DNA of 64,000 bases, taken from assembly GCF_000003815.2 (NCBI RefSeq), contig NC_049996.1:14932619-14996618 (forward strand), in the 5' to 3' direction. Origin of the DNA: Branchiostoma floridae (taxonomy: Eukaryota; Chordata; Leptocardii; Amphioxiformes; Branchiostomatidae). The position numbers were made by a program, and so were the translations under genes. Under the pieces are notes generated by a model. The model had not been told where the DNA came from and ran no database searches. It worked only from the letters and a program-made list of their open reading frames with translations. Positions within the stretch are counted from its first letter, which is position 1. Every line of letters starts with the position of its first letter. This document shows positions 8,935-39,078 of this stretch, one piece after another.

Positions 8935-9539
8935 GTAAGTTCATGCGCATTTAAGTTCATTAGCATACACACCCACTACATATTTATGCATCACTGAGGC
9001 TTTGAGGCTTCTTTTACAAGTAAACTACACACAGTAGTTGTGCCTGCACTTGTATATTTTATCTTTACAAATCATCTAGCATGAGAATTTTACGAACAGC
9101 AGATTTTATCAAAATGATTTGATGACAAAGAAAACACCATTTACAGCTGTATGATTTATATCTTAACTTCAATAGCCATGGTTGCTGTCTCTGTTAGAGA
9201 TAAAGTTCATAAACAAGAATGATAAAGGATATAGAATGCTGTCCTCTCTTCTCATGGTCCCATCACCTGCTTGGCTGGGAAGGCTGGGTACAGTTGGCCT
9301 CTTCCGATGAAGGATCTGTAGCTGAAGAAAACTACAGACAAGTTAGAAAATTAAAGCCTCAGTGAGGAAAAAAATCTTTAAAAAAAGTTTTGTATACTTA
9401 CATATTTACCTGGTAAAGGTCTCCATAACATATAGGCAGACCTCACAGCTCTACAGAAGTGGCAAAATTGTGTCCATCATCAAAATTGGCGCATAAAGAT
9501 GTTCAGAATCGTATAGAAAATCTATTAATCTTAATCTAT

Positions 9540-10720
9540 TTTGTAACTAAACAGTCAATTCACACCACACAGTGTTCAGACATTGTCTCTTTATTTCATT
9601 GCCAAACTTACAAAGCAGCAACCTGCAAAAAGACCTCCTTATTGAAACTAATTCAAATCAATTGATTCACACCACACAATATTGAAGAAACATTCTCTCT
9701 TTATTTCATTGTCAATGCAATTTACAGACTGTAAAGCTCTACAAAAGTTGTGTCCATCATCAAAGTGGCGCGAAAGTGAGTCCAAAATCGCGAAGAAAAC
9801 CTTTCTCTGTCTTGTAAGTAACTTGTGATCAATTGACACCACACAGCATTCTGACTTTGTCTCTTTATTTCATTCTCAGTGAACTTACAGAGTGTGGAAA
9901 TGACAAAGGAGACCTTACTCTATCTTCTTAAAAGTAATTGCAATAAATTGATTCACACCACACAATGTTGAACAGACAGTCTCTTTATTTCTTTGCCAAC
10001 AGAGCTTACAGACTGTAAAAAAGTGTATCAAAACAAAAATTGTCCCCTTTTGTAAGGACCCAAGTTCCCTTCCCACCATGGGATAGAAAAACACAAAGAA
10101 GCGTTACTAATCCGCGAGTAAGTCAAGCCACACAGTATTCAGATGAAATCTCTTTATTTCAATCTCAAGATGTGTGCATCATCAAAATTGGCACAATATG
10201 GTCTTCAAAAGTTCAACAGTGAAGAAGTCCTTGCTCTATCTTAAAGTTTTAATTTAAATCGCAAGTAACTCACACCACACATAATTTAGAGAGTCTCTTT
10301 ATCTTAATCACAATGCCACTTATAATACAGAGTGTAGAAACTTAAAAACAAAAAAAGAATTCCCAAATGTGCAAGGACCCAAGTTCCCTTCCCATCATGG
10401 GATAGTAAAACACAAACCAAGAAGCATTACTCTACCGCGAGTAAGTCAAGCCACACAGTATTTAGACAAAATCTCTTTATTTCAATCTCAACATGTGTCC
10501 ATCATTAAAATTGCCACAATACGATCTCCAAAAGTTGCAAAGAAGTCCCTACTCTATACTGTACCTTAGTCTTAAATCACGAGTAATTCACACCACACAA
10601 TATTCAGACATTGTCTCTTTATTTCAATCTCAAGACTTACATAGTCTGTAAACAGCATCAAAATAAAAGGAAAATTCCCAACTTTGCAAGGACCCAAGTT
10701 CCCTTCCCATGAAGGGATAG
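9540..10720. repeat. 107-bp-type array, diverged edge copy (about 8 units)
   Basis: Eight occurrences of a TTCACACCACACA...CTCTTTATTTCA core at 9557, 9664, 9832, 9951, 10126, 10269, 10447 and 10587. Spacing is irregular, and a GGACCCAAGTTCCCTTCCCA block comes between some units. On the minus strand each unit gives AATAAAG followed about 25 nt later by a GT-rich stretch. Confidence 0.75.
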
Positions 10721-10801
10721 AAAAACACAAATGTTTGAAGCTGTAGGTATGAGGAGAGAAAGCACATGTTATAAAAGCATGCAGTCCTAAACATGGCTTA
10801 C

Positions 10802-10834
10802 CTCTGGCATGTTGGATAGTCCGTCTGCTGTTGT
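10802..10834 (-). other. 33-nt splice-bounded module, edge A-like copy
   Basis: Minus strand: GTTCGAG before, GCCAGAG|gtaagc after. Open in the phase that follows the 45-nt module (QQQTDYPTCQ) and also in phase 0 (TTADGLSNMPE). Confidence 0.35.
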
Positions 10835-11310
10835 CTCGAACAACATAAAAACACAGGAGTGACCTCTTGCCAATCTAGACTAGACCAGGCTAAAGAAATT
10901 GTCTGTTTGCCAGAAATTCCTTTGGCCTGGTATGGGCTAAAATTTGGGGTGTGCCTTGTAGTTATGCAAATGCTGAAATTTAACAGAAAGTAAACCTATT
11001 TACATTTTTGTATCTTAATCAGCTTAAGTCTTAGTTTAGATTGTCTTAGCTTAGCACTTAAAAGTTAATTGACTTAATTAGCTTAGCATCTATCATTATT
11101 ATGCAAACATCAAAGTTCTTTGTGGATAAGACTTCAATCCACAACTTTGTCTTTTATCTAAGAAACATTTTCAAAATGAAGTTTCAATATGTTTTATGTC
11201 CATCAGTCCACACCCCCCAAACAATCTGGGAACTAAGGCCCGCTCTCAGAATAATCAAACACACTTCAACTACTAACTAAGTCCCTGGTCTAATTTAGTT
11301 TTTAACTCAC

Positions 11311-11355
11311 CTTTCCTGATCTAAGTCAAAGTGCATGTGAAGTCCAGAGAGCCAG
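11311..11355 (-). other. 45-nt splice-bounded module, edge A-like copy
   Basis: Minus strand: acceptor CTGCCTTTAG, donor GGAAAG|gtgagt. Read from the second base it gives WLSGLHMHFDLDQE. It enters and leaves in phase 2, so it can be skipped or repeated without a frameshift. Confidence 0.4.
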
Positions 11356-12304
11356 CTAAAGGCAGTTGGAAGTACTGCCTTTCAATTTAAAAAAACCTCA
11401 AGCATTTGTAAGTTTTTTTTTAAATCTTGAATAAAGCATTCATACATAGATCTTTATTCAGTGTCCTTACTCACTATCTTCACTAAGAATCTTTATTCAG
11501 AGTCTTTATTGAAAGTCTTCGTGTAGAATCTTTATCAAGAAGTCTTTATTCAGTGTGTGATTCTTTATTCAATGTGTGATGATAATAGGGTTCGAGATGC
11601 TTGGAGTCTCTTGTGGTCTCTTCTGAAGTGCTCATGGCTCAGCAGTCTATTTCTTAAATAGCAACGATAGTTACTCGTCCATCTTATCACTTACAAGATG
11701 GAAGAACATAAAATTCAAGTGCCATCTTCTCCATTACAAGATGGAAGGAAAAGGCAATAAGAAAGGTCCATCTTCTTGCTTACAAGATGGATGAAATCAA
11801 ATATGATAAATTCTAATTCCATCTTATTGTTCACAAGTTGTACGAAAGAAGATTACTTTTTGTCAGTGTTCCGCCTTTTCTCTTACAAGACGGGTGCAAA
11901 CATTGTTACAACTTTCAAGTCACATCTTCCACTTACAAGATGGACTGAAAAGAATGAAATCACATACTTGGTACATTCACAAATAGACATATTGTCATAG
12001 ACAAGCTATTACATCTCTTTCTCTCTATCTCTGTGTCTGGTAGTCCATCAATGCTGATGATGACATCCTCCTCAGCTCAGGAACAGCAGCCGTGCGTGCA
12101 GCTAACTACTAAAGTCTACTAAGTCAGTAATATTCTAGGTCTATCCCAGAACCCCATTAGTGTTATTTAAGATCTCATTAACAAGGCACTTCATTTCCAA
12201 AATGTTCCCTACTTTTAACTCTTTTATTGAGCCAAGCCAAAGTAGAGTTTGACTCAAGTTCCCCAAACACCTCCACCCTAATACATAAGAAGGAAAGGAT
12301 ATTA

Positions 12305-12405
12305 CTAATCCTGTTCTTGCTTTCTTTCTGGGGCTTGCTTCTCTTCAGGTAGCCAGGAAACAGTGACATCAATGGCATCAGGGTCAGGGGTCACCATAGC
12401 CTCAT
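12305..12405 (-). other. Candidate terminal exon ending in stop
   Basis: Minus strand: acceptor TGTGCTTTCAG, then an open frame entered with two bases, containing EAMVTPDPDAIDVTVSWLPE and ending QEQD-stop at 12305-12307. Related segments occupy the same place in every unit (17700, 22376, 27755, 32703, 38577), but most carry early stops. The 38577 copy stays open in the same phase (ISFTVSRLLEG) to a stop. The family is unknown to me. The V-S-W core is also found in the 175-bp repeat (FVSWHLRDHEA) and at 35755. Confidence 0.4.
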
Positions 12406-12544
12406 CTGAAAGCACAGGAAAAACAAGCCTCTTTTAGCTCTCCTGTTAAAAAGATTGAAGCTGAATACAATTACAATATTAATACTTAGTGTGCTTTGAG
12501 CACAAGTTAAATAAAAGAAAGTTATATTTGCAACTTGAGTTACA

Positions 12545-12735
12545 TTTCTTATGGGACAAGAAGGACGGAATGAAAGGAGGGACAAAGGAATACGGGGAGG
12601 GAAAGGAAAGAAGACAAAGGAATGAGAGAAGGATGAATGGAAGAGATACAGGGAGGGAAAGAAGGGATACAGGGAGGGAAAGAAGAGATAAAGAGAGGGA
12701 GAGAAGATGTACAGGGAGGGAGAGACAGTATGTGT
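12545..12735. repeat. Purine-rich GGGAGGGAAAGA tandem tract
   Basis: Imperfect repeats of AGGGAGGGAAAGAAG with GATACA interruptions. Open frames here are low-complexity Arg/Glu strings and not genes. Confidence 0.75.
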
Positions 12736-13489
12736 AAACATTGAAGTAGGATCTTTACCTAGTAGACTCGGGGGCTAAGCTTCTGCTGTGCTTCTCCCAG
12801 TCAGGAACCACTGCTGCCTGTCTTCCTCCAGTCTTACTTAGACTTTTCCTGCAGTAACTTTACTCAGGCACATAACCAAATATAGCCCTCCATCCATGTG
12901 TTGTCATGATACAAAGCTGGGGGAAAAGTCACAGAAAATAAAGTAGCCTTTCAAACTACAAACAAGGAGAGAAATCTGGACAGAAAACATTTAAGTTAAC
13001 TTTCTGGAAGAGACACTAGCACACAGGGCTGCAATCAAACCTAGGAAACAATAGAATGCAGAGGTCAATATTTCCATGCAGTCTGAGGGAATGAAACAGA
13101 AACAAGTTTATAAAGCAGAAAAAGACTGCTTTTTGTCCTCTTCTTAAGTTCCAGTAAAAGTAGCTGCATTATATTCTTAGAAACAGTAAATGAGCATATT
13201 AGTCTGTAGCACTTGTCAACTTGAAAACAGGCAAGACACTGACTAGTTTTCAGAAGTCTGCAGGACTGAAACAGAAACAGGTTTCTAAACTTGTCTGAGA
13301 CAAGGACACTTCTGCTTGCCTCAGTTCCCATAAAGTTGGATTACATCCCTAGAAAAAGCAAAATTTGTTAGTCTCTAGGACTTTTATGTTGAAAACAGAA
13401 GGGGGGTTTTACTTTCTGTCCTTAGTGCTGAATTCCTGGTAACTCTTGCATCCTTACTCAGGCATAATAAAGTCATTTAGGGTCATCTT

Positions 13490-14000
13490 CCAGGAGATGC
13501 AACTTAAAAACTCCTTGTATTCATATGAGGCTGTGGAAGGGGAAGTGATACCAGTTAGGCTATAATAGAATTTTATCAGTGAGACTGTGATGTGATGTGA
13601 TGTGATGTGATGTGAGGGGAAAGTATGCATCAGATTATAATAGGGAAAAAGACTTGAATTAGTGTGGATGTAGTAAAGGGAAGTAGCATTTATCATTGAG
13701 GCTGTAATGGTAGGAAGATAATCATCATTAAAGCTGTGAAAAAAATCTGCTGATTACTGTTACTGTTTGAAAGGAAAAGGTGATATCAGCTAGGCTGGAA
13801 TCAGGTAAGGGTGTCATAGGGAAAAAGGCTTATTAATGAGCCTGTAATGGGAAAAAAAGCTAGTTATAAAAAGGAAAACGTGAGGCTGCAATAGAGAAAG
13901 GGATCTATAGCTAAGGCTGAAAAAGGACAAAAATCAAAAAGGAGAAGGAATCACTAATCAGTGTGACTGTGGGGAGGAAAAAAAGCATTTTTAATGCAAT
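13490..14000. repeat. Degenerate GAGGCTGTAATGG minisatellite
   Basis: The motif 'gaggctgtaatggg-aaa' returns six or more times at 40-60 bp spacing. A (TGTGA)n microsatellite sits at 13585-13614. Confidence 0.5.
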
Positions 14001-14169
14001 AGACGCTGTCCATGGTGCTGATTGCCATCCACTGTAGAGTGCAGACCTAACCCCAGACATTAAAGCAAGTAAAGGTGCAATCGGAAACTTGGCTTGCTTC
14101 CATCCCTCAACCTCAGTCTTTAACAGTCCCCTGCTTGGTTGGGTCATCTATGCAAGATGTCAGAGGCTC

Positions 14170-15400
14170 CACTCAGGTCCAACTGACATCCTTCATGGCC
14201 TCACAAACTCAGCTTAGCCTGTATACAACAGTCAAGAAGAGTGCACAGTGATTCAGGCAAGACTGTTTTCACCAACCTTTTCTCTGCAACTCTTGTCCTG
14301 TGCCCAGCTCCTTGGACTTGCTTCATGGTCCCTCAGTCACCAGGATACAAACGTCTAATCGTCTTCCAGTGCCACAAACTCGGTCTGCAGACAACAGTCA
14401 AGAAAAGTGCATGGTGATTCAGGCTAGACTGTTTTTACTAACCTTCCCTCTGCAACTCTTGTCTTGCTTGTCCAGCTTTTCCAACATGCTTCATGGTCCC
14501 TCAGGTGCCAGGATACAAACGTCTTATTGTCTTCCAGTGCCACAAACTCAGCAAAGCCTGTAGATAACAGTCAAGAAAAGTGCACCGTGATTCTGGCGAG
14601 ACTGTTTTCACTAACCTTCCCTCTGCAACTGTCTTGTCCTGTGCACAGCTCCTTGAACTTACTTCATGGTCCCTCAGTTGCCAGGATACAAACGTCTTGT
14701 TGTCTTGAAGTTCTGCAAACTCAGCTGAGCCTGTAGACAACAGTCAAGAAAGTGCACGGTGATTCAGGCAAGACTGTTTTCACCAACCTTCTCTCTGCAA
14801 CTCTTGTCTTGTGCCCAGTTAGTCGGACATGCTTCATGGTCCCTCAGGTGCCAGGATACAAAGGTCCTAAATTGTCTTCCACTGCCACAAACTCAGCCGA
14901 GCCTGCAGACAACAGTCAAGAAGAGTGCACCGTGATTCAGGCAAGACTGTTTTTACCAACCTTCTCTCTGCAACTCTTGTCCTGTGCCCAACTTCTTGGA
15001 TGCATTGCTTCATAGTCCCTCAGGCGCCAGGATACATTAACGTCTAATTGTCTTCCAGTGCCCCAAGCTCCACTGAACCTGCATATAACAGTCAAGAAAA
15101 GTGCACGGTGATTCAGGCAAGACTATTTTCACCAGCCTTCTCTCTGCAACTCTTGTCCTGTTCCCTGCTTGTTGGACTCGCTTCATGGTCCCTCAGGTGC
15201 CAAGATACAAACGTCTGATTGTCTTCCAGTGCCGCAAACTTGGTCTGTAGATAACAGTCAAGAAAAGTGCGCGGTGATTCAGGCAAGACTGTTTTCACTA
15301 ACCTTCTCTCTGCATCTCTTGTCCTGTGGCCAGTATGGTCCCTCAGGTGCCAGGATAAAAACGTCTAGTTGTGTTCCACAGGAGTTGCATCTGTCATCAA
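14170..15400. repeat. 175-bp array, about 7 units
   Basis: Units carry CTTCATGGTCCCTCAGGTGC, GATACAAACGTC and CAACAGTCAAGAAAAGTGCA. On the minus strand each unit has an acceptor (TTGTCTACAG) followed by a frame with a core like LEDNQTFVSWHLRDHEA. The opposite strand is also open over long stretches. Unit length is not a constant multiple of three, so frames drift between units. Confidence 0.85.
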
Positions 15401-15439
15401 AATTGTCGCGCAGAAAGGTCCTCACACTATCTTATACCT

Positions 15440-15955
15440 AATCACGAGTAACTCACACCACACATTAGTCAGATACTGTCACTTTATTTCAATTCTTTTA
15501 CCACAAAGATGGCACCATGAAAAGTCGCAAAAAGTCCTTATTCTATCTTAATTACGAGTAACTCACACCACAAAGTAGTCAGATACTGTCACTTTATTTC
15601 ATTTTACATTTGCCACAAAAATGTCTCCAAAAGTCGCAAAGAAGTCCTTACTCTATCTTATACCTAATCACGAGTAACTCACACCACACATTAGTCAGAT
15701 ACTGTCACTTTATTTCAATTCTTTTACCACAAAAATGGTACCAAAAGTCACAAAAAGTCTCTATCTTATTAACTAATCACGAGAAACTAACACCACACAG
15801 TAGTCAGATACTGTCACTTTATTTCATTTCCTTTGCCTTTGTCACAAAAATGTCTCCAAACGTTGCAAAGAAGCCCTTAATCTATCTTATAGTAACTCAC
15901 ACCACACAGTAGTAAGACATGGTCTCTTTATTTCAGTCTCAACACAGCTTACACA
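15440..15955. repeat. 107-bp array, about 5 units
   Basis: Units of about 107 bp with ACTCACACCACA, GTCAGATACTGTCACTTTAT and AAAGTCGCAAA blocks. The minus strand carries AATAAAGTGACAG plus a downstream TGTGGTGTGAG stretch in each. Confidence 0.85.
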
Positions 15956-16149
15956 GTGAGTGCAGAGTATCAAAACAAAAAAAGAATTCCCACATTTGTC
16001 GAGGACCCGGGTTCCCTTCCCATCATGGGGCATAAAAACGGAAAAAGCATGGTTAATGGCTTTTAGAGGCTACTAGTAGGCATTGTTTCTATGAGGAGAG
16101 AAAACACATGTTGGTACAACGCCGCATGCGCAGTGCGAACAGTTCTTAC

Positions 16150-16180
16150 CTCTGGCATCTGGGTAGCCGCTCGCTGTTAT
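16150..16180 (-). other. B-type form of the 33-nt module (31 nt)
   Basis: Same donor (GCCAGAG|gtaag), but only 31 nt lie between the boundaries, so inclusion would shift the frame relative to A copies. Confidence 0.35.
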
Positions 16181-16634
16181 CTTGAAAATGTAGAAAGAAC
16201 AGCAGTCCGATTGAAATTATGCAAATGAAAATAAAGTAGAGATGTTAGGCCAGGCTAAAGAAATTCTCTGTTCACCAGAACAGAATTCCTTTTGCCTGTC
16301 AGCTAAAATTTGGGATGTGCCTTGTAGTTAGGAAAATGATGAGAATAACACGTTAATTGACTTAACTAGCTTAGAACTAGTCCTTAACTAATAAGCTTCA
16401 TATTAAGTTAAATCATTATGCAAAACATCAAAGTTTTTGTGGATAAATCTTCAATCCACAACTTTGTTTTCTGTCTCAGTGTCTGTTATCTTGTTTGAAA
16501 AAGAGGTTTCAAATTGAAATTTTACTTCTGTCAGCCCACCCCCAAAGAATTTGGCAACTGAGCTTGCTCTCTGAAGGATCAAACACGCTTCAACTACTAT
16601 CTAAGTCCCTGGTCTAATTTAGTTTTTAACTCAC

Positions 16635-16679
16635 CTTTCCTGATCTAAGTCAAAGTGCATGTGAACACCAGAGAGCCAG
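16635..16679 (-). other. B-type 45-nt module with lost acceptor
   Basis: Coding sense WLSGVHMHFDLDQE and the donor are kept, but the bases before the module are GG instead of AG (CCTTTGG|CTGG). Normal splicing into it should fail. Confidence 0.35.
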
Positions 16680-18449
16680 CCAAAGGCAGGTGGAAGTACT
16701 GCCTTTCTGCTTAGTAAACTCAAGCATTCAAGTGATTTTCTTTTCAATTATATCTGTGTGCATTCAGCCATTTGGCTTTATTGAAAGAATGCAGATTCTG
16801 TATTCAAAGAGTGGAGGAATATCTGTGCTAGGAGTATCTTTATCATCAAGAAAGGCTTTATTGAGAATCTTTATTCAGTGTGTGATTCTTTATTCAACGT
16901 GTGATGATTGTAGCGTGGTTGGAGTCTTCTTTCCGGGGGCATCTTCTGGTACGTCTAAGTAGTCCGATTATTTAACAGCAACAATAGTTTCTCAAAAGAA
17001 TTAGAATATGATCTTCACATGCCATCTTCTCCATTACAAGATGGGTGGATAACATTACAACATCATTATGAGATGGGTTCGAGGAGATTCTACAAGATGG
17101 ACGTAAAAAAACTTATAACTCAGTCAGTGCTCCGCCTTTTCCCTTACAAGACGGTTGCTAACATTTGAAGCACTGCTACAACTTTTTAAGTCTCATCTTT
17201 TCACTTACAAGATGGACTGAGAAATACAAAATTAGGTACAAAGTAGATTCAGAAAGAAACAGTATAGTCACTGATGATCTACGAACTATTGAATCTCTCT
17301 CTTTCTCTCTCTGGTAGTCCATCGATGCTGATGATGACATCCTCCTTTAGCTCAGGAACAGCAGCCGTGCGTGCAGCTAACTACTTAAGTCTATACTAAG
17401 TCTTAGCAATATTCTAGGTCTATCGCAGAACCCCAGTACTTTTATTCTTAATGTTATTTAAGATCTCATTGACAAGGCACTTTATTTCCAAAATGTTCCC
17501 TACTTTTAACTCATTTATTGAGCCAAACAAAGTAGAGTTTGGCTAAAGGTTACAGAATAACCTACATCCCCAACGCCCCCCACCCTTACGCTTAAATGTT
17601 GGCGTAGAAAAAGAAGAATCTTAGCTGGTCAGAAGTCTTCTTTTCTTGAGGCTTGCTTCCTTCAGGTATACAAGACATCAGTGGAAGGCACACGTAGGAC
17701 CTGTAGAAAGTGAGAGAAAACAAATTAAGGTGATTGTGAAGAGTTGACAATCTTACACTTGATCATGACAATCTTTGTCAAGTCAACATTAGGTTTTGAA
17801 AGGTTTTGGTGTGTTAAGTGAGGAAAGTGCCACAGCCATTCAAGTACCTGGGAGTCAGTACTGCTTTGCTTTGTCAGCCGGGCATTCAGGAAGCAAAGTC
17901 ATCAATCCTTCACCAGAATACAGTGCAGACATTCCTCAGCCAGTTAGCATCACTTCGTCACCTATACCAACTTAACTGAGGCACAGAAATAACACAACGA
18001 TAGCCGACAAATCCAATTTGGATGTGGCTATAGAACTAAGGCAAGAAAAGACAACTCACCAAGAGACAACATAAAGATAGCCAGCAACTCAATTTTGAGA
18101 GTGGCCACAGAAATCAACCAAAGAGAAATGCCTGGAAAAGAGCAGCAAAGTTAGCCAGCTAATGCTCACTTAGAGCACCGCTGGAAGAAATAGAAAACCT
18201 GCCTGCTTTGTCCCACCTAGGAATGGTAGGATCCAAAATGAATGATTTAAGTCAGCTGCAGAATTTCACTGAAAGCAAAAGATCAGAGTTCAACAGACCG
18301 CAACTCCCTCAAGTTCCTGAAAACTGAAAAAAATCTGCATGAGATGCGCACAAACAAAAGAATTGCATAACACCTGGAAAAGTACTGGTTCTACAAACTA
18401 AAACGGAATGAAAAGGAGAGCAGTAGAAATAGGTGCTTTCTCTTATAGA

Positions 18450-18990
18450 ACTGCAACATCATTGTGTTATCTCTCCCCTAAGATATACCCTCTGAAATAC
18501 AACAACACACCTGCAGTAAAGCATAGATCGATCTCTGGAAAGACCTGCAAAAAATGTGCCCTGAAGAACTGCAATTTGCCTAGAAAAAGTGATGAGTGTT
18601 AGATTTGTGGTTTCCAGTAAATCTGCTGTCACTCTAAAAAAGGTACAGTAGCATCAATCTCTAGAAGGAGCTGCAAAAACATGTGTCCTTAAGAACTGCA
18701 ACACACCTGCAATAAACAGAGATCAATTTCTAGAAAGAGCTGCAAAAACATGCGCTCTTAAAATCAGCAACACACCTGCAGTTAAGCATAGATCAATCTG
18801 TACAAAGAGCTGCAAAAACATGTGCTCTTAAGAACTGGAACACACCTGCAATAAATCAAGATCAATCTCTAGCAAGAGCTGCAAAAATATGCGCTCCTAA
18901 GAACTGCAATCCCCCTAGAAAAAGTGCTGAGTGTTACTAGTGTTTAGCTTTGTGGTTTCCAGTGAATCTGCTGTCACTCTAAAAAAGTAC
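18450..18990. repeat. 68-bp array
   Basis: Repeats of GATCAATCTCTAGAAAGAGC, TGCAAAAACATGCGCTC and TAAGAACTGCAACACACCTG. On the minus strand each unit contains TTTTGCAG, then 33 nt (LFLEIDLDLLQ), then gtgtg. That is exon-like in form, but the intervening 'introns' would be only about 36 nt. Confidence 0.75.
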
Positions 18991-19589
18991 AGTAACATCA
19001 AATGGCAAAGTGTGGAAAGCTACAAACTATTAAAAATGGAAGTCCATCCAAGACCAGCATTGGCATTGTGATGAAAAAAAAACCTTGAAGATGGGCCTCA
19101 AAAAGTATTACATTCTGGTGGGGCTGAAAAAGCATTTTAGCAGAGATCAGAAAGGGAAATGTACTTGTTAATAGTGCAGACCTGTCCATGGTGCTGATTG
19201 CTATTCACTTCACTGCACTGTACTGTACAAAGTTGTTTCTTGATCCTAAGAAACCCAGCATGGTATAAAGGGATGTCACTGTTGAGGAAGCATTGTTCTT
19301 AATTAAGAATAAAAGAGAAAGAAAGAAGGCAATAAAAAAGAAGGAAGGAAGTGTGTTGTCTGTAGGTGCAGATCTTGCATGTTCATGAGGTCATGGGTTC
19401 AAATACCAGCATGAAATGGAGGAACGTCACTGTTGAGGAAGAAATGTTACCAAGAAAGGCAGAAAGAAAAGAGTGAGAGATTAAAGGAGGAAGGAAGGAA
19501 AAAAGGAGAAAGAAAAGGAGGAAGAAAGAAAGGATCTTCTGACATTGATGCATCCTACTCCAACTAGCCTGAGTCAGAGGCTACCTTCA

Positions 19590-20440
19590 GGTTCAGCTGA
19601 CATCCTTCATGGCCCCACAAACTCAGCTTAGCCTGTAGACAACAGCCAAGAAAAGTGCATGGTTAGACTGTTTTTACCAACCTTCTCTCTGCAACTCTTG
19701 TCCTGTGCCCAGCTTGTCAGACTTGCTTCATGGTCCCTCAGGTGCCAGGATACAAAGGTCCTAAATTGTCTTCCACTGCCACAAACTCAGCTTAGCCTGC
19801 AGACAACAGTCAAGAAGAGTGCACGGTGATTCAGGCAAGACTGTTTTTACCAACCTTCTCTCTGCAACTCTGTACTGTGACCAGCTAGTTGGTCTTGCTT
19901 CATGGTCCCTCAGGTGCCAGGATACAAACGTCTGATCGTCTTCCAGTGCTGCAAACTCAGCTTAGCCTGCAGACAACAGTCAAGAAGAGCGCACTGTGAT
20001 TCTGGCTAGACTGTTTTCACCAACCTTCTCTCTGCAACTCTCGTCCTGTGCCCAGCTAGTCGGACATGCTTCATGGTCCCTCAGGTGCCAGGATACAAAG
20101 GTCCTAAATTGTCTTCCACGGCCACAAACTCAGCTTAGCCTGTAGACAACAGTCAAGAAAAGTGCCAGTGATTCAGGCAAGACTGTTTTTACCAACCTTC
20201 TGTCTGCAAGTCTTGTCTTGCTTGTCCAGCTTTTCCGACATGCTTCATGGTCCCTCAGGCGCCAGGATACAAACGTCTTATGGTCTTCAAACTCAGCCTG
20301 TAGACAACAGTCAAGAAAGTGCACGGTGATTCAGTCAGGACTGTTTTCACCAACCTTCTCTCTGCAGGTCTTGTCAGTGCCCAGCTTCATGGTCCCTCAG
20401 GCGCCAGGATACAAACGCCTAATCGTCTTCCAGCGCTGAT
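19590..20440. repeat. 175-bp array, about 5 units
   Basis: Same unit as at 14170. The last unit runs into a unique block (20440-20690) that reappears at 30710-30960. Confidence 0.85.
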
Positions 20441-20770: not shown

Positions 20771-20836
20771 CTTTGAGGTCCTGTAGGCAAAGGAGAAAGC
20801 ACATGTTAGTACAGCATGCAGTCCCACATGGCTTAC

Positions 20837-27885: not shown

Positions 27886-28030
27886 ACATTACCCAAAAAA
27901 GCAATTGCTCAAGCAATTCGATATGATTTTTGAAAAGGTCAGACATTTCCGACAGCCATTCTGTGTCTTTCATCAGTGACACTGTATACTTTGGCATATC
28001 TTATTAACTGGATGTCTAACCTTCATCGAC
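27886..28030. mobile_element. 145-bp MITE with 8-bp target duplication
   Basis: Interrupts the sequence GCAAGTACCTGGGAGTC that is continuous in sister units (17830s, 32850s). GTACCTGG is duplicated on both sides (27878-27885 and 28031-28038). The body (GCTCAAGCAATTCGATATG ... TGGATGTCTAACCTTCATCG) matches the elements at 60471 and 63339. The 8-bp duplication suggests hAT-type mobilisation. Confidence 0.85.
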
Positions 28031-28599
28031 GTACCTGGGAGTCAGCACAGTTGTGCTTTGTCAGCTTGGCAGGCAGAAAGGTAGAAGAGTCATCCCCCCG
28101 TCAGCACAATACAGGGGAGACATTCCTCAGCCAGTTAGCTTCACCTATACCAACTTAACTGAGGCACAGAGATAACACAACAATAGCCGACAACTCCAAT
28201 TTGGATGTGGCTATAGAACTAAGGCAAAAAAAGACAAGTTACCAAGAGACAACATAAACATAGCCAGCAACTCAATTTTGAGAGTGGCCACAAAAATCAA
28301 ACAAAGAGAAATGCCTGGAAAAGAGCCAGCTAATGCTCACTTGGAGCACCGCTGGAAGAAATAGAGACCCTGCCTGCTTTGTCGTATGGTAGGATCCAAA
28401 ATGAATGGTTAAAGTTAGCTGCAGAATTTCACTGCAAGAGAAAGAACAGAGTTCAACAGACCACAATTCCTTCAAGTTCCTGTACACTGAAAAATTATGG
28501 ATGAGCTGCGCACAAACAAAAGAATTGCATAATACCTGGAAAAGAGGTGGTTCTAAAAACTTCAACAATATCACATGAGCTGCAGAAATAGGTGCTCTC

Positions 28600-29140
28600 T
28601 CTCTTCAAGAACTGCAACATCATTGTGTAATCTCTATCCTAAGATGCACCCTCTGAAATACAGCAACACACCTGCAGTAAAGCATAGATTAATCTCTGGA
28701 AAGACTTGCCAAAAATGTGCCCTTAAGAACTGCTATTTGCCTAGAAAAGTGATGAGTGTTAGATTTGTGGTTTCCAGAGAATCCGCTGTCACTTAAAAAG
28801 AAGTACAGTAGCATCAATCTCTAGAAGGAGCTGCAAAAACATGTGTCCTTAAGAACTGCAACACACCTGCAATAAACAAAGATCAATTTCTAGAAAGAGC
28901 TGCAAAAACATGCGCTCTTAAAATCAGCAACACACCTGCAGTTAAGCATAGATCAATCTGTAGAAAGAGAGCGGCAAAAACATGCGCTCTTAAGAACTGC
29001 AACACACCTGCAATAAATCAAGATCAATCTCTAGCAAGAGCTGCAAAAATATGCGCTCTTAAGAACTGCAATCCGCCTAGAAAAAGTGCTGAGTGTTACT
29101 ACCTGTTAGCTTTGTAGTTTCCAGTGAATCTGCTGTCACT
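28600..29140. repeat. 68-bp array
   Basis: Very similar to 18450-18990, consistent with the 10-kb dimer period. Confidence 0.75.
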
Positions 29141-29739
29141 CTAAAAAAGTACAGTAACATCAACTGCCAAAGTGTGGAAAGGTACAGACTATTAAAAATG
29201 GAAGTCCATCCAAGACCAGCATTGGCAAAGTAATGAAAAAAAATTTTGAAGATAGGCCCCAAAAAGTATTACATTCTGGTGGGGCTGAAAAAGCATTTTA
29301 GCAGAGATCAGAAAGGGAAAATGTACTTGTTAATAGTGCAGACCTGTCCATGATGCTGATTGCCATTCACTTCACTGCACTGTACTGTACTGTACAAAGT
29401 TGTTTCTTGATCCTAAGAAACCCAGCATGGTATAAAGGAATGTCACTGTTGAGGAAGCATTGTTCTTAATTAAGAATAAAGGAGAAAGAAAGGAAGGCAA
29501 TAAAAAAGAAGAAGTGTGTTGTCTGTAGGTGCAGATATTGCATGTTCATGAGGTCTACGTCATGGGTTCAAATCCCAGCATGAAACGGAGAAATGTCTGT
29601 TGAGGAAGAAATGTTACCGAGGAAGGACGAAAGAAAAGAGTGAGAGAGTAAAGGAGGAAGGAAGGAAAAAAGGAAAGGATCTTCTGACATTGATGCATCC
29701 TACTGCAACTTGCCTGATTCAGAGGCTCCCTTCAGGTTC

Positions 29740-30720
29740 AGCTGACATCCTTCATGATTTAGACAAGACTGTTTTTACCAACCTTCTCTCTGCAACTCTT
29801 GTCCTGTGCCCAGCTTGTCAGACTTGCTTCAAAGTCCCTCAGGCGCCAGGATACAAACGTCGGATTATCTTCCAGTCCCACAAGCTGAGCCTGTAGATAA
29901 CAGTCAAGAAAAGTGCACGGTGATTCAGACAAGACTGTTTTCACCAACCTTCTTTCTGCAACTCTTGTCCTGCTTGACCAGCTTTTCCGACATGCTTCAT
30001 GGTCCCTCAGGTGCCAGGATACAAACGTCTGATTTTCTACAAGTGCCACAAACTCAACCTGTAGACAACAGCAAAGAAGAGTGCACGGTGATTCAGGCAA
30101 GACTGTTTTCACTAACCTTCTCTCTGCAACTCTTGTCTTGTGCCCAGCTCTTTGGACTTGCTTCAGGTGCCAGGATACCAACGTCTAATCGTCTCCAGTG
30201 CTACAAACTCAGCTGAGCCTGTAGATAACAGTCAAGAAAAGTGCACGGTGATTCAAGCAAGACTGTTATCACCAACCTTCTCTCTGCAACTCTTGTCCTG
30301 TGCCCAGCTTGTCGGACTTGCTTCACGATCCCTCAGGTGCCAGGATACAAACGTCTGATCATCTTCCAGGGCCCCAACCTCCACTGAACCTGCATATAAC
30401 AGTCAAGAAAAGTGCACGGTGATTCAGTCAAGACTGTTTTCACTAACCTTCCCTCTGCAACTCTTGTTCCTTGTCCAGCTTTTCCAACATGCTTCATGGT
30501 CCCTCAGGTGCCAGGATACAAACGTCTGATTTTCTACAAGTGCCACAAACTCAACCTGTAGACAACAGCCAAGAAGAGTGCACGGTGCTTCAGGCAAGAC
30601 TGTTTTCACCAACCTTCTCTCTGCAGGTCTTGTCCTGTGCCCAGCTTGTCCTGTGCCTGGCTTCATGGTCCCTCAGGCGCCAGGATACAAACGTCTAATC
30701 GTCTTCCAGCGCTGATCTGT
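29740..30720. repeat. 175-bp array, about 6 units
   Basis: Carries the longest continuous frames of this repeat on both strands (about 140 codons minus, 136 plus). Neither frame begins or ends at a gene-like boundary. Confidence 0.85.
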
Positions 30721-30972
30721 CCACAGTGGTCTCCATCTGTTGCTACAAAACTAAAGAACAACATGCAATAGAACGCCCATTTCTTGGGGACCCGATTTCC
30801 CTTTGTCTTGAAACTGGAGACAGATGGAGAGACTTCAAAGGGTTGCAACTTACAACCTACCATCACCCGACCTGGCTCTAGTCTCAAGACATCCCTTCCC
30901 GGTATGGGACAGAAAAACAAAAAAGGGCATTCAAGCCCAAATAGATAAATGTAGAGGTTGGTTATTATAGCT

Positions 30973-31051
30973 TGGACCTAACCCCACATAAATGCTAGGA
31001 TTGCTTTGAGGCTCAAACCAATCCTTAGGCATTTATGTGGGTTTAGGTCCA
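30973..31051. repeat. 79-bp hairpin, second A copy
   Basis: Counterpart of 20692-20770 with two or three point differences that do not abolish pairing. Confidence 0.8.
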
Positions 31052-31117
31052 CCTTGAGGTCCTGTAGGCAAAGGAGAAAGCACATGTTAGTACAGCATGC
31101 AGTCCCACATGGCTTAC

Positions 31118-31150
31118 CTCTGGCATCTTGGGTAGTCCGCCTGCCGTTGT
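31118..31150 (-). other. 33-nt module, core A copy
   Basis: Phase-0 reading TTAGGLPKMPE, donor GCCAGAG|gtaag intact. Confidence 0.4.
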
Positions 31151-31618
31151 CTCCAAGAACATAAAATCACAGGAGTCCTCTTGCAAATCGTCAACTAGAT
31201 CAGGCTAAAGAAATTCTCTGTCGACCAGAAATGTTCTTTGGCCTGGAATGGGCTAAAATTTGGGGTGTGCCTTGTAGTTATGCAAATGCTGAAATTCAAC
31301 AGAAAGTAAACTTATTCATCTTAATTAGCTACTTTTAGATTAAGTCTTAGCTTAACACTTAAGTCTTAGCTTAGCACTTAAAACTTAATTAGCTTAGCAT
31401 TTATGATTATTATGCAAAACATCAAAGTTCTTTGTGGATAAGACTTCAATCCACAACTTTGTCTTTTATCTAAGAAACATTTTCAAAATGAAGTTTCAAT
31501 ATGTCTTATGTCCCTCAGTCCACCCAAAAAAATTTGGGAACTAAGGCTCGCTCTCTGAATTATCAAACACACTTCAACTACTAACTAAGTCCCTGGTCTA
31601 ATCTAGTTTTTAACTCAC

Positions 31619-31663
31619 CTTTCCTGATCTAAGTCAAAGTGCATGTGAAGTACAGGGAGCCAG
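31619..31663 (-). other. 45-nt module, core A copy
   Basis: Acceptor AG and donor AAG|gtgagt intact; reads WLPVLHMHFDLDQE. Confidence 0.4.
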
Positions 31664-33479
31664 CTAAAAGCAGATGGAAGTACTGCCTTTCAATTAAAAA
31701 GTCTCAAGCAGTTGAAGTTTTTTTTTTTCAATCTTAATTCTAGCATTGTCAGTTACACTGACTTGCAGGACCTCTGTGTCCTTATTCACTATCTTCTTTG
31801 AGAATCTTTATTGACAGTCTTAATTGAAAGTCTTATTGTGAAATCTTTAAAAAGAAGTCTTTATTCAGTGTGTGATTCTTTATTGAATGTGTGATGATGG
31901 TAAGGTCTGAGATGCTTGGAGTCTCTTGTTGGGTAATGTCTTCTGGAGTGTTCATAGCTCAGCAGTCCGCTTCTTAAACAGTAGCGATAGTAACTCATCC
32001 ATCTTATCACTTACAAAACGGAATAATATGAAATTCAAGTGCCATCTTCTCCATTACAAGATGGAAGGAAAAAAATGATAACAAGGGTCTAACTTCTTGC
32101 TTACTATTCTTGTTCACAATTTCTTTGTCAGTTCTCCGCCTTTCCTCTTACAAGACGGTTACAAACATTTGAAGCGCTGTTACATCTTTCAAGCCACTTA
32201 CAAGATGGACTGAGAAATTTGAAGTCAGGTACAAAATAGACTTAGAAAGAAACAGTATAGTCATCTACGAACTATTGAATCTCTCTCTTTCTTTCTCTGG
32301 TGGTCCATCGATGCTGATGACGACATCCTCCTGTAGCTCAGGAATGGCGGCTGTGCGTGCAGTTAACTACTAATTAAAAGTCTACTACCGGTAAGTCCTA
32401 GCAATATTCTAGGTCTATCCCAGAACCCCAGTACTTTTATTCTTAATGTTACTTAAGATCTCATTGACAAGGCACTTTATTTCCAAAATGTTCCCTACTT
32501 TTAACTCATTTATTGAGCCAAACAAAGTAGAGTTTGGCTAAAGGCTACAGAATAACCTACATGTACATCCCCAACGCCCCCCACCCTTACGCTTAAATGT
32601 TGGCATAGAAAAAATGAATCTTAGCTGGTCAGACGTCTTCTTTTCTTGAGGCTTGCTTCCTTCAGGTATACAAGACATCAGTGGAAGGCCTACATGGAAG
32701 GACCTGTGTAGAGTGAGAAAAAGCAAAGGTAAATAAATGACAATCTTAAACTTTCTGATGACACTGTTAGACATTACCCTGCAAGTCAACATTACATTTT
32801 AAAAGGTTTAGTTACAAAAAAGTGTTAAGTGAGGAAAGTGGCACAGCCATGCAAGTACCTGGGAGTCGGCACAGTTGTGCTTTGTCAGCTGGGCAGTCAG
32901 GAAGCAGAGTCATCCCTCCTTCAGCACAATACACTGGGGACATTCCTCAGCCATTTAGCATCACTTCACCTATATCAACTTAACTGAGGCAACCCGACAG
33001 TAGCCGACAACTCCAATTTGGATGTGGCTATAGAACTAAGGAAAGAAAAGACAAATTACTAAGAGACAACATAAAGATAGCCAGCAACTCAATTTTGAGA
33101 GTGGCCACAAAAATAAAACCAAAGAGAAACGCCTGGAAAAGAGCAGCAAAGTTAGCCAGCTCATTGCTCACTTGGAGCACCGCTGGAAGAAAAGAAACCC
33201 TGCCTCTAACCTAGAAATAATTGGAAAAAAATGAATCAATTAGAGGTAGCTGCAGAATTTCACTGTGAGAGAAAGAGCAGAGTTTAATAGACCACGTTTC
33301 CTTCAAGTCTTGGCTGTATACTGAAAAAAACTTAGCAGGGATGAATATGCACTGCTTTGAAGAGAAATAGAACTGGAAAGATCTGCGGAAGTATGCACCC
33401 CTGAAAAACTGGAAAAACATCTGAAGAGTTGCAAAACACCTGAGAAAATAGTGGTTCTACAAACTGCAACAGAATGAAA

Positions 33480-34140
33480 TGAGCTGCAGAAATAGGTGCT
33501 CTCTCTCTTAGAACTGCAACATCACTGTGTAGTCTCTACCCTAAGATATACCCTCTGAAATATAGCCACACACCTACAGTAAAGCACAGATCAATTTCTG
33601 GAAAGATCTGCAAAAATTAAGAACTGCAATCTGCCTAGAAAAAAGTGACGAGTGTTAGATTTGTGGTTTCCAGTGAATCGGCTGTCACTCTAAAAAAAAG
33701 CACAGTAGCATCAATCTCTAGAAAAAGCTGCAAAAACATGTGTCCTTTAGAACTGCAACACACCTGCAATAAACTGAGATCAATTTCTAGAAAGAGCTGC
33801 AAAAACAGCTCTTAAAATCAGCAAGACAGCTGCAATGAATGATCTATCAATCATTGGAAAGAGCTGCAAAAATATGCGCTCTCAAGAACTGCAACACGCC
33901 TAGAAAAAGTGACGAGTGTTAGCTTGGTGGTTTCCAGTGAATCTGCCGTCACTCTAAAAAGAGCTGCACAAATATGCACTCTTAAGAACTGCAGCACACC
34001 TGCAATAAACCAAGATCAATTTCTAGAAAGAGCTGCAAAAATATGCGCTCCTAAGAACTGCAATCCCCCTAGAAAAAGTGCTGAGTGTTACTAAGTGTTT
34101 AGCTTTGTGGTTTCCAGTGAATCTGCTGTCACTCTAAAAA
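33480..34140. repeat. 68-bp array, right-most copy
   Basis: Same blocks as the other 68-bp arrays, more diverged and slightly longer. Confidence 0.7.
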
Positions 34141-34924
34141 AGTACAGTAATATCAACTGGCAAAGTGTGGAAAGCTACAAACTCTTAAAAATGGAAGTCC
34201 ATCCAAGACCAGCATTGGTAGAGTTATGGAAAAAAACCCTTGAAGATAGACCTCTAAAAGTATTACATTCTGGTGGGACTGAAAAGCATTTTAGCAGAGA
34301 TCAGAAAGGGAAAATGTACTTGTTAATAGTGTAGACCTGTCCATGGTGCTGATTGCCATTCACTTCACTGCACTGCACTGTAGTTGTTTCTTGATCCTAA
34401 AAAATCACTGTTGAGGAAGCATTGTTCTAAGAATAAAGGAGAAAGAAAGGAAGGCAATAAAAAAGAAGGAAGGAAGTGTGTTGTCTGTAGGTGCAGATCT
34501 TGCATGTTCATGAGGTCATGAGTTCAAATCCCAGCAGGCAACAAATGAATGTCACTGTTGAGGAAGCAATGTTTTCAAGGAGAAGAGCAAGAAAAAGAGG
34601 AAAAGACAGAAAGAGAAAAAGAAATAAAGGAGTCTTGTTAATTATGCAGACCTGTCCATGGTGCTGATTGCCATTCACTTCACTGCACTGTAGTTGTTCC
34701 TTGATCCTAAGAAACTCAGCATGGCATAGAGAAATGTCACTGTTGAGGAAGCAATGTTATCAAGAAGGAAGAAAGAAAAGAGCAAGGAAAAGAGGAAAGG
34801 AAAGAGAAAAGGATAGAAAGAAAGAAAGGATAAGGTGCTATCTTCTAACATTGATGCATCCTCCTCCAAGTAACCTCAAGGTAGTGCCATCAGTCCTGTG
34901 AATGGACCTGCAGAAAACCAGAAA

Positions 34925-35750
34925 AAAACAAAGTGTGAAATTTAATGTATTTGTAAGTGTTTCAGAAAATGTAACTCCAAATAGATGTCAAAAATTACTT
35001 TCATATATATTAATCAAAGTGATATCTTTAAGCAGCTTTGTTAAGTAAACCCATTACATGCTCAGTTGTTTCTAACTGCCTATAATTTTCAGATCTTGGC
35101 CCACGAAACATTTGCAGTACCATATAAGTTTTACTACTGAGTATTATATTCTTGCATTCGTTTTATATTTCCAGCTAAGTTTAAATTGTTAAAAAAAAAG
35201 AGGTTGTTATCTGGTTCAGTTCCTGTTGTCCAAAGCTTAGGGGGACCTCCAAGAAGCCTTGAAGCAGGAGCATCCATCCGAGGAAAGGTTCTCACTCAGT
35301 CCCGTAGGTTCTGTAGAAGGCAACAAAGAATAGATAGTTAGTGGAAAGTGAACTAGTGTCTCAGAAAAACAGATACTATAACAATCTGCCCTAAAATACT
35401 GAACAGTTACAGCTAAACTACTTATAACACATTCCTAAGGTTTCAAAGAGAATTTACATTTACCTGACCATGATTTTATGTATGTATCTCTTAACAACTG
35501 AACAGCTACAGCTATACAGCTACAGTTATACTTACCACAAATTCCTAAGCTTTCAAAGAGAATATTTACCTGACCACAATTTTTGTATGCATCTATTAAC
35601 AGCTGTACACGCTTCTCTTTTAATGGAAACCAATACAGCTACAATTATACTAAGAAGCTTTCAGGCTACAGATGTTAAGATTACAGTTGATCTTAAACCG
35701 GTCGTAATGAGTTGTAACAAAAGAGACTCCCTTACTGATGTCTGATTTCC
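34925..35750. other. Array edge, diverged sequence
   Basis: No clean units. A minus-strand acceptor (TTGCCTTCTACAG, near 35312) is followed by a stop-terminated frame in the same phase as the terminal modules, related by its CTTGAAGCAGGAGC core. A CAGCTACAGTTATAC repeat lies near 35410-35650. Confidence 0.35.
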
Positions 35751-35754
35751 ATTG

Positions 35755-35810
35755 TCATGGTCCAGTTGCTTGCCTTGCTAGTAGCCAGGATACATCTTTC
35801 ATGGAATCAC
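35755..35810 (-). other. Candidate short terminal exon
   Basis: Minus strand: acceptor TTTTATTTACAG, then a 2-base entry, then SMKDVSWLLARQATGP and stop. Same entry phase and V-S-W core as 12305-12405, so probably an old duplicate of that module. Confidence 0.3.
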
Positions 35811-36009
35811 CTGTAAATAAAAGAATCTACAAAGAAGTTTAATAGAAAAGTTTCAGACAAGAAAAAAAGTTACAAAAGTTTCATACTTACATGTTTTACC
35901 TGGAAGATGTTTTCCATTAATTTCATCATCGCTCCACAGAAGAATCCCTCAAAATTGGTGAAAAAAAGCTGACTCCAAAAGACTGAAAGGTCTCAAGAAA
36001 TCGCGAAGA

Positions 36010-36620
36010 CATTCTTCTGATCACGAGTAACCGACACCACACAAGGTTCAGACACTGTCTCTTTATTTCAATTGCTGCAGTTTACAGAGAGAATACAGAC
36101 CATCCTGAAATATGGCAAAAAGTCTCAAGTGAAATCGCGAAGCGGTTCTCAATCTACCTTAAAACTAATCGCGAGTAACTCACACCACACAATATTCAGA
36201 CAGTTTCTTTATTTCAGTTGTTGCAGCTTACAGAGAGAATATAGACAATCTTCAAATATGGCAAAAAAGTCTCAAGAGAAATCGCAAAGAGGTTCTCAAT
36301 CTATCTTAAATTAATCACGAGTAGCTCACACCACACAATATTCAGACACAGTCTCTTTATTTCAATCATTGACTTCTGAATCTGAAGCTAAAAAGAAGTT
36401 CTTAATGTACCTTAAAACTAACCATGAATAACTCACACCACACAGTCTTCAGACACTTTTTATTTATTCTCTTTATTTTGTTGTCAATACAGCTTAAAGA
36501 GTGTGTGCAAAAAGAAGTTCTTAATGTACCTTATAACTAACCGTGAATAACTCACACCACACAGTCTTCAGACACTTTTTATTTATTCTCTTTATTTTGA
36601 TGTCAATACACCTTAAAGAG
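36010..36620. repeat. 107-bp-type array, right edge
   Basis: About five diverged units, again with CACACCACACA and CTCTTTATTT, and followed by GGACCCAAGTTCCCTTCCC as at the left edge. Confidence 0.75.
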
Positions 36621-36823
36621 TGTGTGCAAACGGTATCAAAGAAAAATCCCACTTTTGCAAGGACCCAAGTTCCCTTCCCTTTATGGGATAGAAATAAACT
36701 ATAGCTAAGCTAAAAAAATAGCCCTAAGTCCAGATGATACTATTAAATTATAAAGAGGTTGAAGCTGCAGGTATGAGGAGAGAAAGCACATGTTATACAA
36801 GCATGCAGTTTCACATGGCTTAC

Positions 36824-36856
36824 CTCTGGCATCTTGGATCTGGCGCCTGCTGTTGT
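36824..36856 (-). other. 33-nt module, right edge copy
   Basis: Phase-0 reading TTAGARSKMPE, donor intact. Confidence 0.35.
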
Positions 36857-37279
36857 CTCGAACAACATAAAAAAACACAGGAGTCCTCTCACCAATCTAG
36901 ACTAGACCAGGCTAAAGAAATTCTCTGTCCACCAGAAATTCCTTTGGCCTGGTATGGGCTAAATTTTGGGTGTGCCTTGTTTTATGCAAATGTTGCAAAC
37001 TAAATGCAAACTTCCTTTTCATTAGCTTAACTATCTTAATGGCTAACTTAATGAGCTTAACAGCTCTCATCATTATGCAAACTGTTTTAAGGGATTTGTG
37101 GATCCCCTTCACAACTTTGTCTTTTTTATAGGAATTTTCAAAACAGATTTTTTTTGTTCTTTTAATCCACCCCCCAGAAAAAATTTGGATTCTTGCATGC
37201 CAGGATTGGACTCTGAATCAACACACACTTCGACAACTAACTAGTCCCTGCGCGAACTCTAATTTGTGGTTTAACTTAC

Positions 37280-37325
37280 CTTTCCTAGAGCTTAAGTCAA
37301 AGTGCATGTGAGAGAGTGCAAGCCA
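37280..37325 (-). other. 45-nt-type module, right edge, diverged
   Basis: Donor AGGAAAG|gtaag, core HMHFDL kept, but the 5' part is different and the acceptor is unclear. The upper boundary is approximate. Confidence 0.3.
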
Positions 37326-37787
37326 GGGCCAAAAGCAGGCAAATATAGCCTTTCAACTTTGCAAAATTCAAGTATTTGAAAGTTCAATTCAGTGTTCATT
37401 CCATTAGTTTCTTTGACAATTATTCACTGTCTATATTCTATCATCTTTATTCCACATCTTTATTCAATATCATAATCTTTATTCAACATCTTTATTTCAA
37501 CATCACAATCTTTACTCAACACTTTATTTCAATCTTTATCAACATCTTTATTCAATGTTTTCATTTGTTCATTTCAGGAGATGATGGTGGCTCCCTAGGT
37601 GGTCAGTTGTTGGGACATCTTCAGGAATGGCTTGACAGTCCAAGTGTTGAGTGGCATCTCTTCCACGTGTGCTCCAAATCTTACTTCAATATCTACACTC
37701 CGGGATAGATACTAGTTTGTCTTTTCTCTTACAAGATATTAAAGATATCTTCAAAATAGCAACTGGATAAAGTATTTGCTTCCTTCA

Positions 37788-37887
37788 NNNNNNNNNNNNN
37801 NNNNNNNNNNNNNNNNNNNNNNNNNNNNNNNNNNNNNNNNNNNNNNNNNNNNNNNNNNNNNNNNNNNNNNNNNNNNNNNNNNNNNNN
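37788..37887. other. Assembly gap (100 N)
   Basis: A round 100-N placeholder, so the true length is unknown. It interrupts the right edge of the array. Confidence 1.
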
Positions 37888-38599
37888 TTACAAGACATGA
37901 AAGATATCTTCAAATGACAACTAGGATAAAATAGTTACTTGCAAGATGGACGAATGACTCAGAGATACTGATTTTAAATCCGTCTTCTTCCTTAAAAGAT
38001 TAGTAAAAAAAAGTTTGTACTATACTGTTATATCTTTTCAATTACGAAGCATAGATGAAGCGTTTTTCAATCAGTGTTCCATCTTCTCCTTACAAGATGG
38101 TTGGGTAACATTCAGAACACTGGTAACGTTACATAGTTTTGCTTCTTCAGTTCTTTCCAGATATATTCCATACAGTTTTGTCACTGAGTCATAATGATTG
38201 TACAAGTTTCAAATGTACAGTAACATGATATTGCTTCTTCCTGGTATTCTCCTTGTGAACTATATCATTCATGAATGTCTTACTCTTAGCAATTCTATCC
38301 CTGAACCCCAATTATTTTATGCAAAGATCTTCTGTAAGATCTTTGTCACAAGGCACACTCTTTCCAAAATGTTCCCTACATTTAACTCATTTAGAGAGAC
38401 AGACCAAAGTAGAGTTTGACTCAAGTTCCCCAAATGCCCTCCACCCTTACTCATTCTAAATCATCAGCAAAAAAAGGATATCTACATACAAATCCTATTT
38501 GTGTTCTCACTGTGGGCAAGATGCTTCCTTCCTTCCTTCAAGCAGCCTGGAAACAGTAAAACTGATGGGAAGATGTTCTGAAGAAAAGAGATAGGAGAA

Positions 38600-39078
38600 G
38601 AGAGAGAGCTATAACCTCCTTGGTTTCAGAATGCATGCAGTAACAAAACTGGTGAATCAGGTGTAATCATCTGAAAGCAACTAGGCTGCCTAATTGTACA
38701 CACCTGCAAATACTTTTACATAATTAAATCAAACTTGATTACACTACAATATAGGGATATGTAACATTATTCATATAAATTTAATATGAAGCATTGCTCA
38801 TTGTTAAGTTTATAAAGTATGGTGATCAAAATGTATAGAAAACAGTGTTTACATTAACTGTTTACATCAGCAATAATGCAATATCTCCTAAAGTGCTACA
38901 GGTGCATTGCCCTAATTAAATAACCACATTTTTTAGTTAGTCAGAAAATAATTATGTAAATGACAATTCTCATCACTTGTTATGGAGATAATATAAAGAA
39001 AGTACTTTAAGAAAGCAAGAAGCATCAGAATACCTGATAGCATAGCTTTTAGTTGTGGTTGGAAAGGCATAAGCTTAC
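38600..39078. other. No gene recognised
   Basis: AT-rich spacer between the array edge and the 39079 exon candidate. I see no further structure. Confidence 0.4.

Follow-up and report, generated by a model that had tools for sequence, protein, structure and literature searches.

The window analysed here is a 64,000-nucleotide stretch of the Branchiostoma floridae genome (contig NC_049996.1), placed at C18:14,932,619-14,996,618 by a genome search (513,431,437 bp, 431 contigs). It contains a tandem array of six units of ~5 kb each, at 10.7-38.6 kb on the minus strand, and a gene encoding a leucine-rich repeat (LRR) receptor-like protein. The features are collected in Table 1; positions are those of the window unless a contig is named.

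Table 1. Features of the window. A slash marks a predicted splice junction; 3' and 5' follow the minus strand.
Feature	Position	Strand	Remarks
Paralogous block	216..57445		three on C18: window; inverted, ~15.78-15.82 Mb; direct, ~16.01-16.06 Mb
Degenerate left-edge fragment	9249..10433	-	kin to right-edge unit and 107-bp minisatellite, mostly 61-69% identity
Unit 1, left-edge type	10734..15391	-	3' half B-like, 5' half unlike units 2-5; 171-bp repeats 14202-15378
Unit 2, type A	15392..20771	-	107-bp minisatellite at 3' end; 171-bp array 19615-20436
Unit 3, type B	20772..24927	-	171-bp array 24387-24876
Unit 4, type A	24928..31061	-	107-bp array 24928-25979; 171-bp array 29755-30712
Unit 5, type B	31062..35985	-	no 171-bp array found
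Unit 6, right-edge type	35986..38600	-	same type at corresponding edge of both sister arrays; 100-N gap inside
Landmark/splice site X (unit 3)	21315..21350	-	TCACATGCACTT...GGAAAG/GTGAGT
Landmark/splice site Y (unit 3)	20832..20846	-	GATGCCAGAG/GTAAG
56-nt candidate intron after donor Y (unit 3)	20781..20836	-	branch-like TACTAAC, pyrimidine tract, CTACAG
Candidate upstream exon, 77 nt	39079..39155	-	CTTCCAG/ ... CAG/GTAAGC
171-bp minisatellite (example)	24387..24876	-	period: acceptor, ~101-115 nt exon-like, donor GTTRGT, short intron-like stretch
107-bp minisatellite (example)	24928..25979	-	AATAAAG-bearing motif, ten minus-strand matches
Cluster of four 23-nt hairpins (unit 3)	21700..21918	-	starts 21918, 21858, 21765, 21722
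Single-exon LRR receptor-like gene, 990 aa	54473..57445	+	head-to-head with minus-strand units

Layout of the array and its sister arrays

In a self-BLAST of the window, diagonals are strong at ~10.0-10.3 kb and weaker at ~4.7-5.4 kb, and together span 9.2-38.6 kb; diagonals of such length rule out a chance match. Six copies of landmark X lie on the minus strand (11332, 16656, 21342, 26720, 31640, and 37303), and alternate occurrences are 10,010 and 10,298 bp apart for one type and 10,064 bp apart for the other. The initial annotation of this DNA, made from its letters alone, had given these same spacings for six units alternating between two types and had proposed a dot-plot diagonal at 10 kb as a check. 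The spacings were reproduced exactly from landmark X, the diagonal was seen, and the count of six units held. The strict alternation did not: unit 6 is not of type A, and the real order is edge-A-B-A-B-edge. Over the compared segment, unit 6 shares 61 and 63% identity with the window A units, 71% with both B units, and 74% with the unit at the left edge; it is a type of its own.

The six window units were also aligned and compared half by half, with 3' and 5' taken in the minus-strand sense. In the 3' half the two types are distinct (A-A 0.941, B-B 0.952, A-B 0.766-0.791). In the 5' half they are hardly separable (A-A 0.906, B-B 0.884, A-B 0.858-0.882), and the expectation of higher identity within than between types holds clearly only in the 3' half; in the 5' half A-B comes close to A-A and B-B. 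The 5' half of unit 1 does not align with the other units (~0.48).

Several classes of minisatellite had been assigned to each unit in the same order. Such classes are indeed present, but not every class is found in every unit: the 171-bp array occurs in units 1-4 of the six, and the 107-bp array in the two A units, diverged matches to it lying at either end of the whole array. A 69-bp repeat is also among the unit components. Array counts of the hexamer AATAAA are 67 on the minus strand, versus 10.4 in shuffles, and 31 versus 22.6 on the plus strand. A long inverted repeat (CCCCACATAAATGC... and its complement), seen by eye at 20690-20772, may be a small palindromic element where units 2 and 3 meet. 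On the plus strand, a tRNA-promoter-like stretch (GGGTTCAAATCCCA), similar to a short interspersed element (SINE), lies at 24120-24200 and at homologous places in units 2, 4, and 5; a tRNA scan with bacterial settings returned none.

The array belongs to a block that has two paralogs on C18, and each of the three blocks carries such an array together with an LRR-receptor gene. DNA homology between the blocks was read from window position 216 (or 5546) to ~53.1 kb, and the LRR gene was added by protein search. Its two best relatives sit in the other two blocks, with identities of 86% and 85%; the one at 16.05 Mb is split in two pieces. Counted by landmark X, the sister arrays comprise four units in the inverted block (~15.79-15.81 Mb) and seven in the direct block (~16.01-16.05 Mb). 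Flank identity between blocks is mostly 75-87%, with one piece at 67.1%, which counters the view of the three arrays as haplotypes. Two stretches are much closer to the inverted block, namely 216-3252 (98.5% identity) and 37888-38734 (96.6%), with neighbouring pieces at 67-81%; they may be due to patchy conversion or to a recent exchange between the inverted paralogs. The end of the inverted block that matches window position 216 falls at an assembly gap. The 100-N gap within unit 6 (37788-37887) corresponds to ~62-63 bp in both sister blocks, and the 16.01-Mb block has a 100-N gap of its own close by (C18:16045287-16045386).

Units of the sister arrays were typed with a tree of the 0.7-kb segment between X and Y, plus the 107-bp marker. 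Types grouped across arrays, with support of 100/99 for the A clade, 100/100 for the right edges, and, more weakly, 92/100 for B; the left-edge units formed no resolved clade (88/86 jointly with the right edges). On this tree, at least the types A and right-edge would predate the separation of the blocks. The window A unit at 16656 pairs with the A unit of the 16.01-Mb array (100/99), which suggests either two A lineages before the block split or gene conversion. Mosaic units were also detected in the 16.01-Mb array, where the 5' halves of the A unit and of three of the four B units match the left-edge unit best. On the X-Y segment, the sister arrays read edge-A-B-edge (15.79 Mb) and edge-A-B-B-B-B-edge (16.01 Mb); the A+B dimer is repeated in the window array alone, as two A+B pairs.

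Splice-like signals, hairpins, and coding potential

The motif AGGTRAG occurs 12 times on the minus strand across the array, all at two homologous positions present in 6/6 units; the plus strand has one. The GT of site X lies at 11310, 16634, 21320, 26698, 31618, and 37279 in the six units, that of site Y at 10801, 16149, 20836, 26231, 31117, and 36823. Outside C18, relatives of the units lie on C11 (two loci), C12, C15 (two units, separated by 5.7 kb), and C16, which with the three on C18 makes eight loci; these counts are lower bounds and exclude partial matches at C15:19.394 Mb (a 171-bp fragment) and C5:22.331 Mb.

Around X-Y, 23 copies from five contigs were aligned (17 from C18, two from C11, one from C12, two from C15, and one from C16), and the GT of both predicted donors was kept in all 23. 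Invariant were 99 of the 716 reference columns and three of the 38 GT dinucleotides, both predicted donors being among those three. A random draw of three GTs would take both named ones in 3 of 703 cases, which is only a guide for related rows. Among 12-base windows, two of the three top scorers carry the predicted donors, one tied with an intronic window. Both GTs are intact at three loci (C11, C12) with ~52-60% identity. The branch/pyrimidine stretch TAACATGTGCTTTCT was recovered with few changes on C11, C12, and C18 (one substitution in C12). Both splice sites of the candidate upstream exon are kept in six of the eight loci, with no match in the C12 piece or the second C11 piece; its indels are not multiples of three and break any frame.

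Splice-like signals also recur within the 171-bp minisatellite. From 18 acceptor anchors, which included splice dinucleotides, 15 periods were paired, with acceptor CAG in 15/15 and donor AAG/GT in 14/15 (GC in the remaining one); one 94-nt row was cut at a wrong GT and lies outside the range of 101-115 nt. The repeat spans exon and intron, as is characteristic of the so-called mirages. Amphioxus mirages are described with comparable periods (150-160 bp for BflGb6, 157 bp for BflGb9), the BflGb6 units being 81-100% identical (PMC3087553). The lancelet repeats of the Adh3 and globin genes resemble those of the window in their length and in carrying splice signals at an exon/intron boundary; here, in contrast, acceptor and donor lie in one period, four consecutive ~5-kb units are involved, and no host coding gene was found. 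If transcribed, the locus would place splice-site-bearing minisatellites within larger tandem arrays in a basal chordate.

These signals make each unit resemble a portion of a spliced gene read on the minus strand. The description of the array as made of gene-like blocks, also given in the initial annotation, gains support from the conserved splice-like signals on one strand, the common upstream exon, and the relatives on other contigs.

Short hairpins are present in each of the 17 C18 units, on the strand of the splice sites, mostly with a CCATCTT/CCGTCTT stem and a GTAAN5 loop. In the three C18 sequences taken together, 59/66 TCTTGTAA sites on the strand of the units pair at a minimum of six of seven stem positions, versus 16% of random positions. 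Across 22 distinct hairpins, pairing extends to 92.9% of cells, and in 11 cells both sides are altered; none of 500 shuffles reached either value. Sites of this type also pair at six or more positions on C15 (6/8) and C16 (5/6). The C11 and C12 pieces searched (L016, L018, L019, and L026) contained a single hairpin site, which does not pair at six or more positions. Rfam gave no match in the window; a search of 20772-31061 gave six weak matches, each under its gathering score.

No reading frame is kept throughout the array units. Pfam families were absent from all six frames of 20772-30700 (stops read as X), about one third of the array, with units 1, 5, and 6 outside the scan. Seven of the 15 171-bp periods have stops in all frames. 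The similarity between C11 and C12 is spread over many frames and both strands and is therefore not clearly protein-like. On these results we set the protein-coding reading aside: the units may once have coded for protein, but are unlikely to do so now.

Origin and nature of the array

Our preferred reading, held tentatively and with slightly less than even confidence, is that the array represents a tandemly amplified family of noncoding, spliced, multi-exon RNA genes on the minus strand. Transcription, splicing, and noncoding function, as well as the order of duplications, are inferred. An internal exon block of ~5 kb would have been duplicated in tandem by unequal exchange, giving, in minus-strand order, an upstream exon near 39.1 kb and then six units. 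The contents of a unit would vary, comprising a ~171-bp exon/intron mini-array, the 69-bp repeat, hairpins, AATAAA, site X, site Y, and a short intron. Copy number differs between the blocks (six units in the window, four and seven in the others), each with its LRR-receptor gene. The A/B period may stem from a single duplication of an adjacent A+B pair, or represent the ancestral state, with loss or re-amplification in the other arrays.

The product would most likely be a family of spliced long noncoding RNAs (lncRNAs) with repeated small hairpins. A fuller version is possible but more doubtful, namely a structured lncRNA family with amplified exon blocks and 23-nt hairpins, lying head-to-head with an LRR receptor gene in each of three linked blocks, in which exon blocks change in copy number and splice sites are kept but no frame is. 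Literature searches returned no description of the array, which is no proof that none exists. One known likeness is to the Firre-type lncRNAs, noncoding spliced loci with exonic and intronic local repeats (PMC4820808). As there, internal repeats would form many exons and occupy introns, if the locus is transcribed; here, by contrast, the repeat unit measures 5 kb and there are three paralogous loci. If transcribed, the three paralogous blocks, with 4, 6, and 7 units, would offer a natural copy-number series for the role of repeated exon blocks in noncoding RNA.

Several observations weigh against a family of noncoding RNA genes. Concerning the splice signals, (i) with up to two substitutions allowed, no branch/pyrimidine stretch turned up in the pieces from C15 and C16; (ii) donor Y of C12 lacks the G before GT; (iii) acceptor positions vary between unit types, and exon X showed no clear acceptor; (iv) the presumed intronic motifs ACAAGGCACACC, TTAGTTAGTAGT, and AAAGTTGTGGAT show about the same conservation as the splice sites, so that the constraint may concern something else; and (v) conservation at the splice dinucleotides of the 171-bp periods is partly by construction, given the anchors. 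Concerning the hairpins, independent paired-change events are few, with two double-change pairs (reached in 189/500 shuffles) and four further pair types (reached in 500/500). Concerning coding potential, 8/15 of the 171-bp periods share one stop-free frame, the same relative to the repeat, which fits former coding; C11 and C12 share an open stretch of 84 residues, with 77% identity; and C11 has an open exon of 35 codons with good splice sites. With the 35 residues of that exon as query, the matches were itself, a C11 twin split over two frames, and a weak match in C12, where the homologous stretch contains a stop.

A rival reading is that of tandem, decayed pseudogene fragments of some protein-coding gene, whose splice signals are fossils under no selection, the shared frame of the 171-bp periods, the C11 exon with acceptor and donor, and the 84-residue stretch being the points in its favour. 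Neutral fossils should lose GT at the same rate as other dinucleotides, and their account is therefore weakened by the donors kept in every aligned copy, including the three loci at ~52-60% identity, as well as by the seven periods closed in all frames and the frame-breaking indels of the upstream exon. We consider it unlikely, yet the strongest competitor, and retain it because the conserved intronic motifs remain unexplained, acceptors vary, and frames are partly open.

Still less probable is an origin as non-autonomous mobile-element debris, in which an old transposon-derived composite would have spread to C11, C12, C15, C16, and C18 before local amplification. The dispersed relatives, the SINE-like stretch in units 2-5, the palindromes and hairpins, and the lack of a protein domain in 20772-30700 would suit such an origin; the few copies (eight loci and two partial matches, as lower bounds) and the upstream exon that accompanies the unit in 6/8 loci would not. 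An assembly artefact, with haplotypes or mis-joins set in tandem, seems very unlikely. It could draw on the gap in unit 6, the gaps in the sister blocks, and the 98.5% flank stretch that ends at a gap in the inverted block, but window units of one type diverge by about 5-12% and those of different types (A against B) by 12-23%, depending on the half, the edge units are common to all three arrays, and the window gap equals ~62 bp in both paralogs.

Least credible of all is a centromere-like or satellite higher-order repeat, the architecture put forward in the initial annotation: the dimeric 10-kb period and the nested 171-bp repeats recall it, but the array has only two A+B pairs, its same-type identities fall short of the very high values expected of a multi-monomer unit in many copies, X-Y typing shows no repeated dimer at 15.79 or 16.01 Mb, and the units, with their conserved splice-like signals, sit in a duplicated block with an LRR-receptor gene and segments of long interspersed element (LINE) type. 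Human alpha-satellite higher-order repeats consist of alternating monomer types with a ~171-bp repeat. Two alternating types and a ~171-bp repeat (a coincidence of length) are present here too; unlike the human case, there are two dimer copies, 5-kb gene-like units, and sister arrays lacking the repeated dimer. The 10-kb period appears, on the order of units in the three arrays, to be a small local duplication of two A+B copies or the leftover of an ancestral A-B-A-B arrangement. An ordinary local duplication in two copies can, then, look like a 10-kb higher-order repeat.

Mobile elements and the LRR receptor gene beside the array

Between the array and the LRR gene, a truncated reverse-transcriptase segment at 41300-43181 is absent from both paralogs, where it is replaced by ~0.3 and ~1.1 kb of unmatched sequence. 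A LINE-type element with RVT_1 and endonuclease domains occupies 46121-52589 (with a 100-N gap at 46827-46926); its empty sites are clean in both paralogous blocks. Upstream of the reverse-transcriptase frame, an open reading frame of 795 aa on the minus strand (49940-52327) contains a GDSL-lipase-like domain (E 8.9e-09) and is probably ORF1 of this element. The LRR receptor gene itself has dozens of genomic relatives and encodes repeated cytoplasmic motifs of the IPDEYF/IPDEYY type, with a 267-bp tandem repeat inside its coding sequence.

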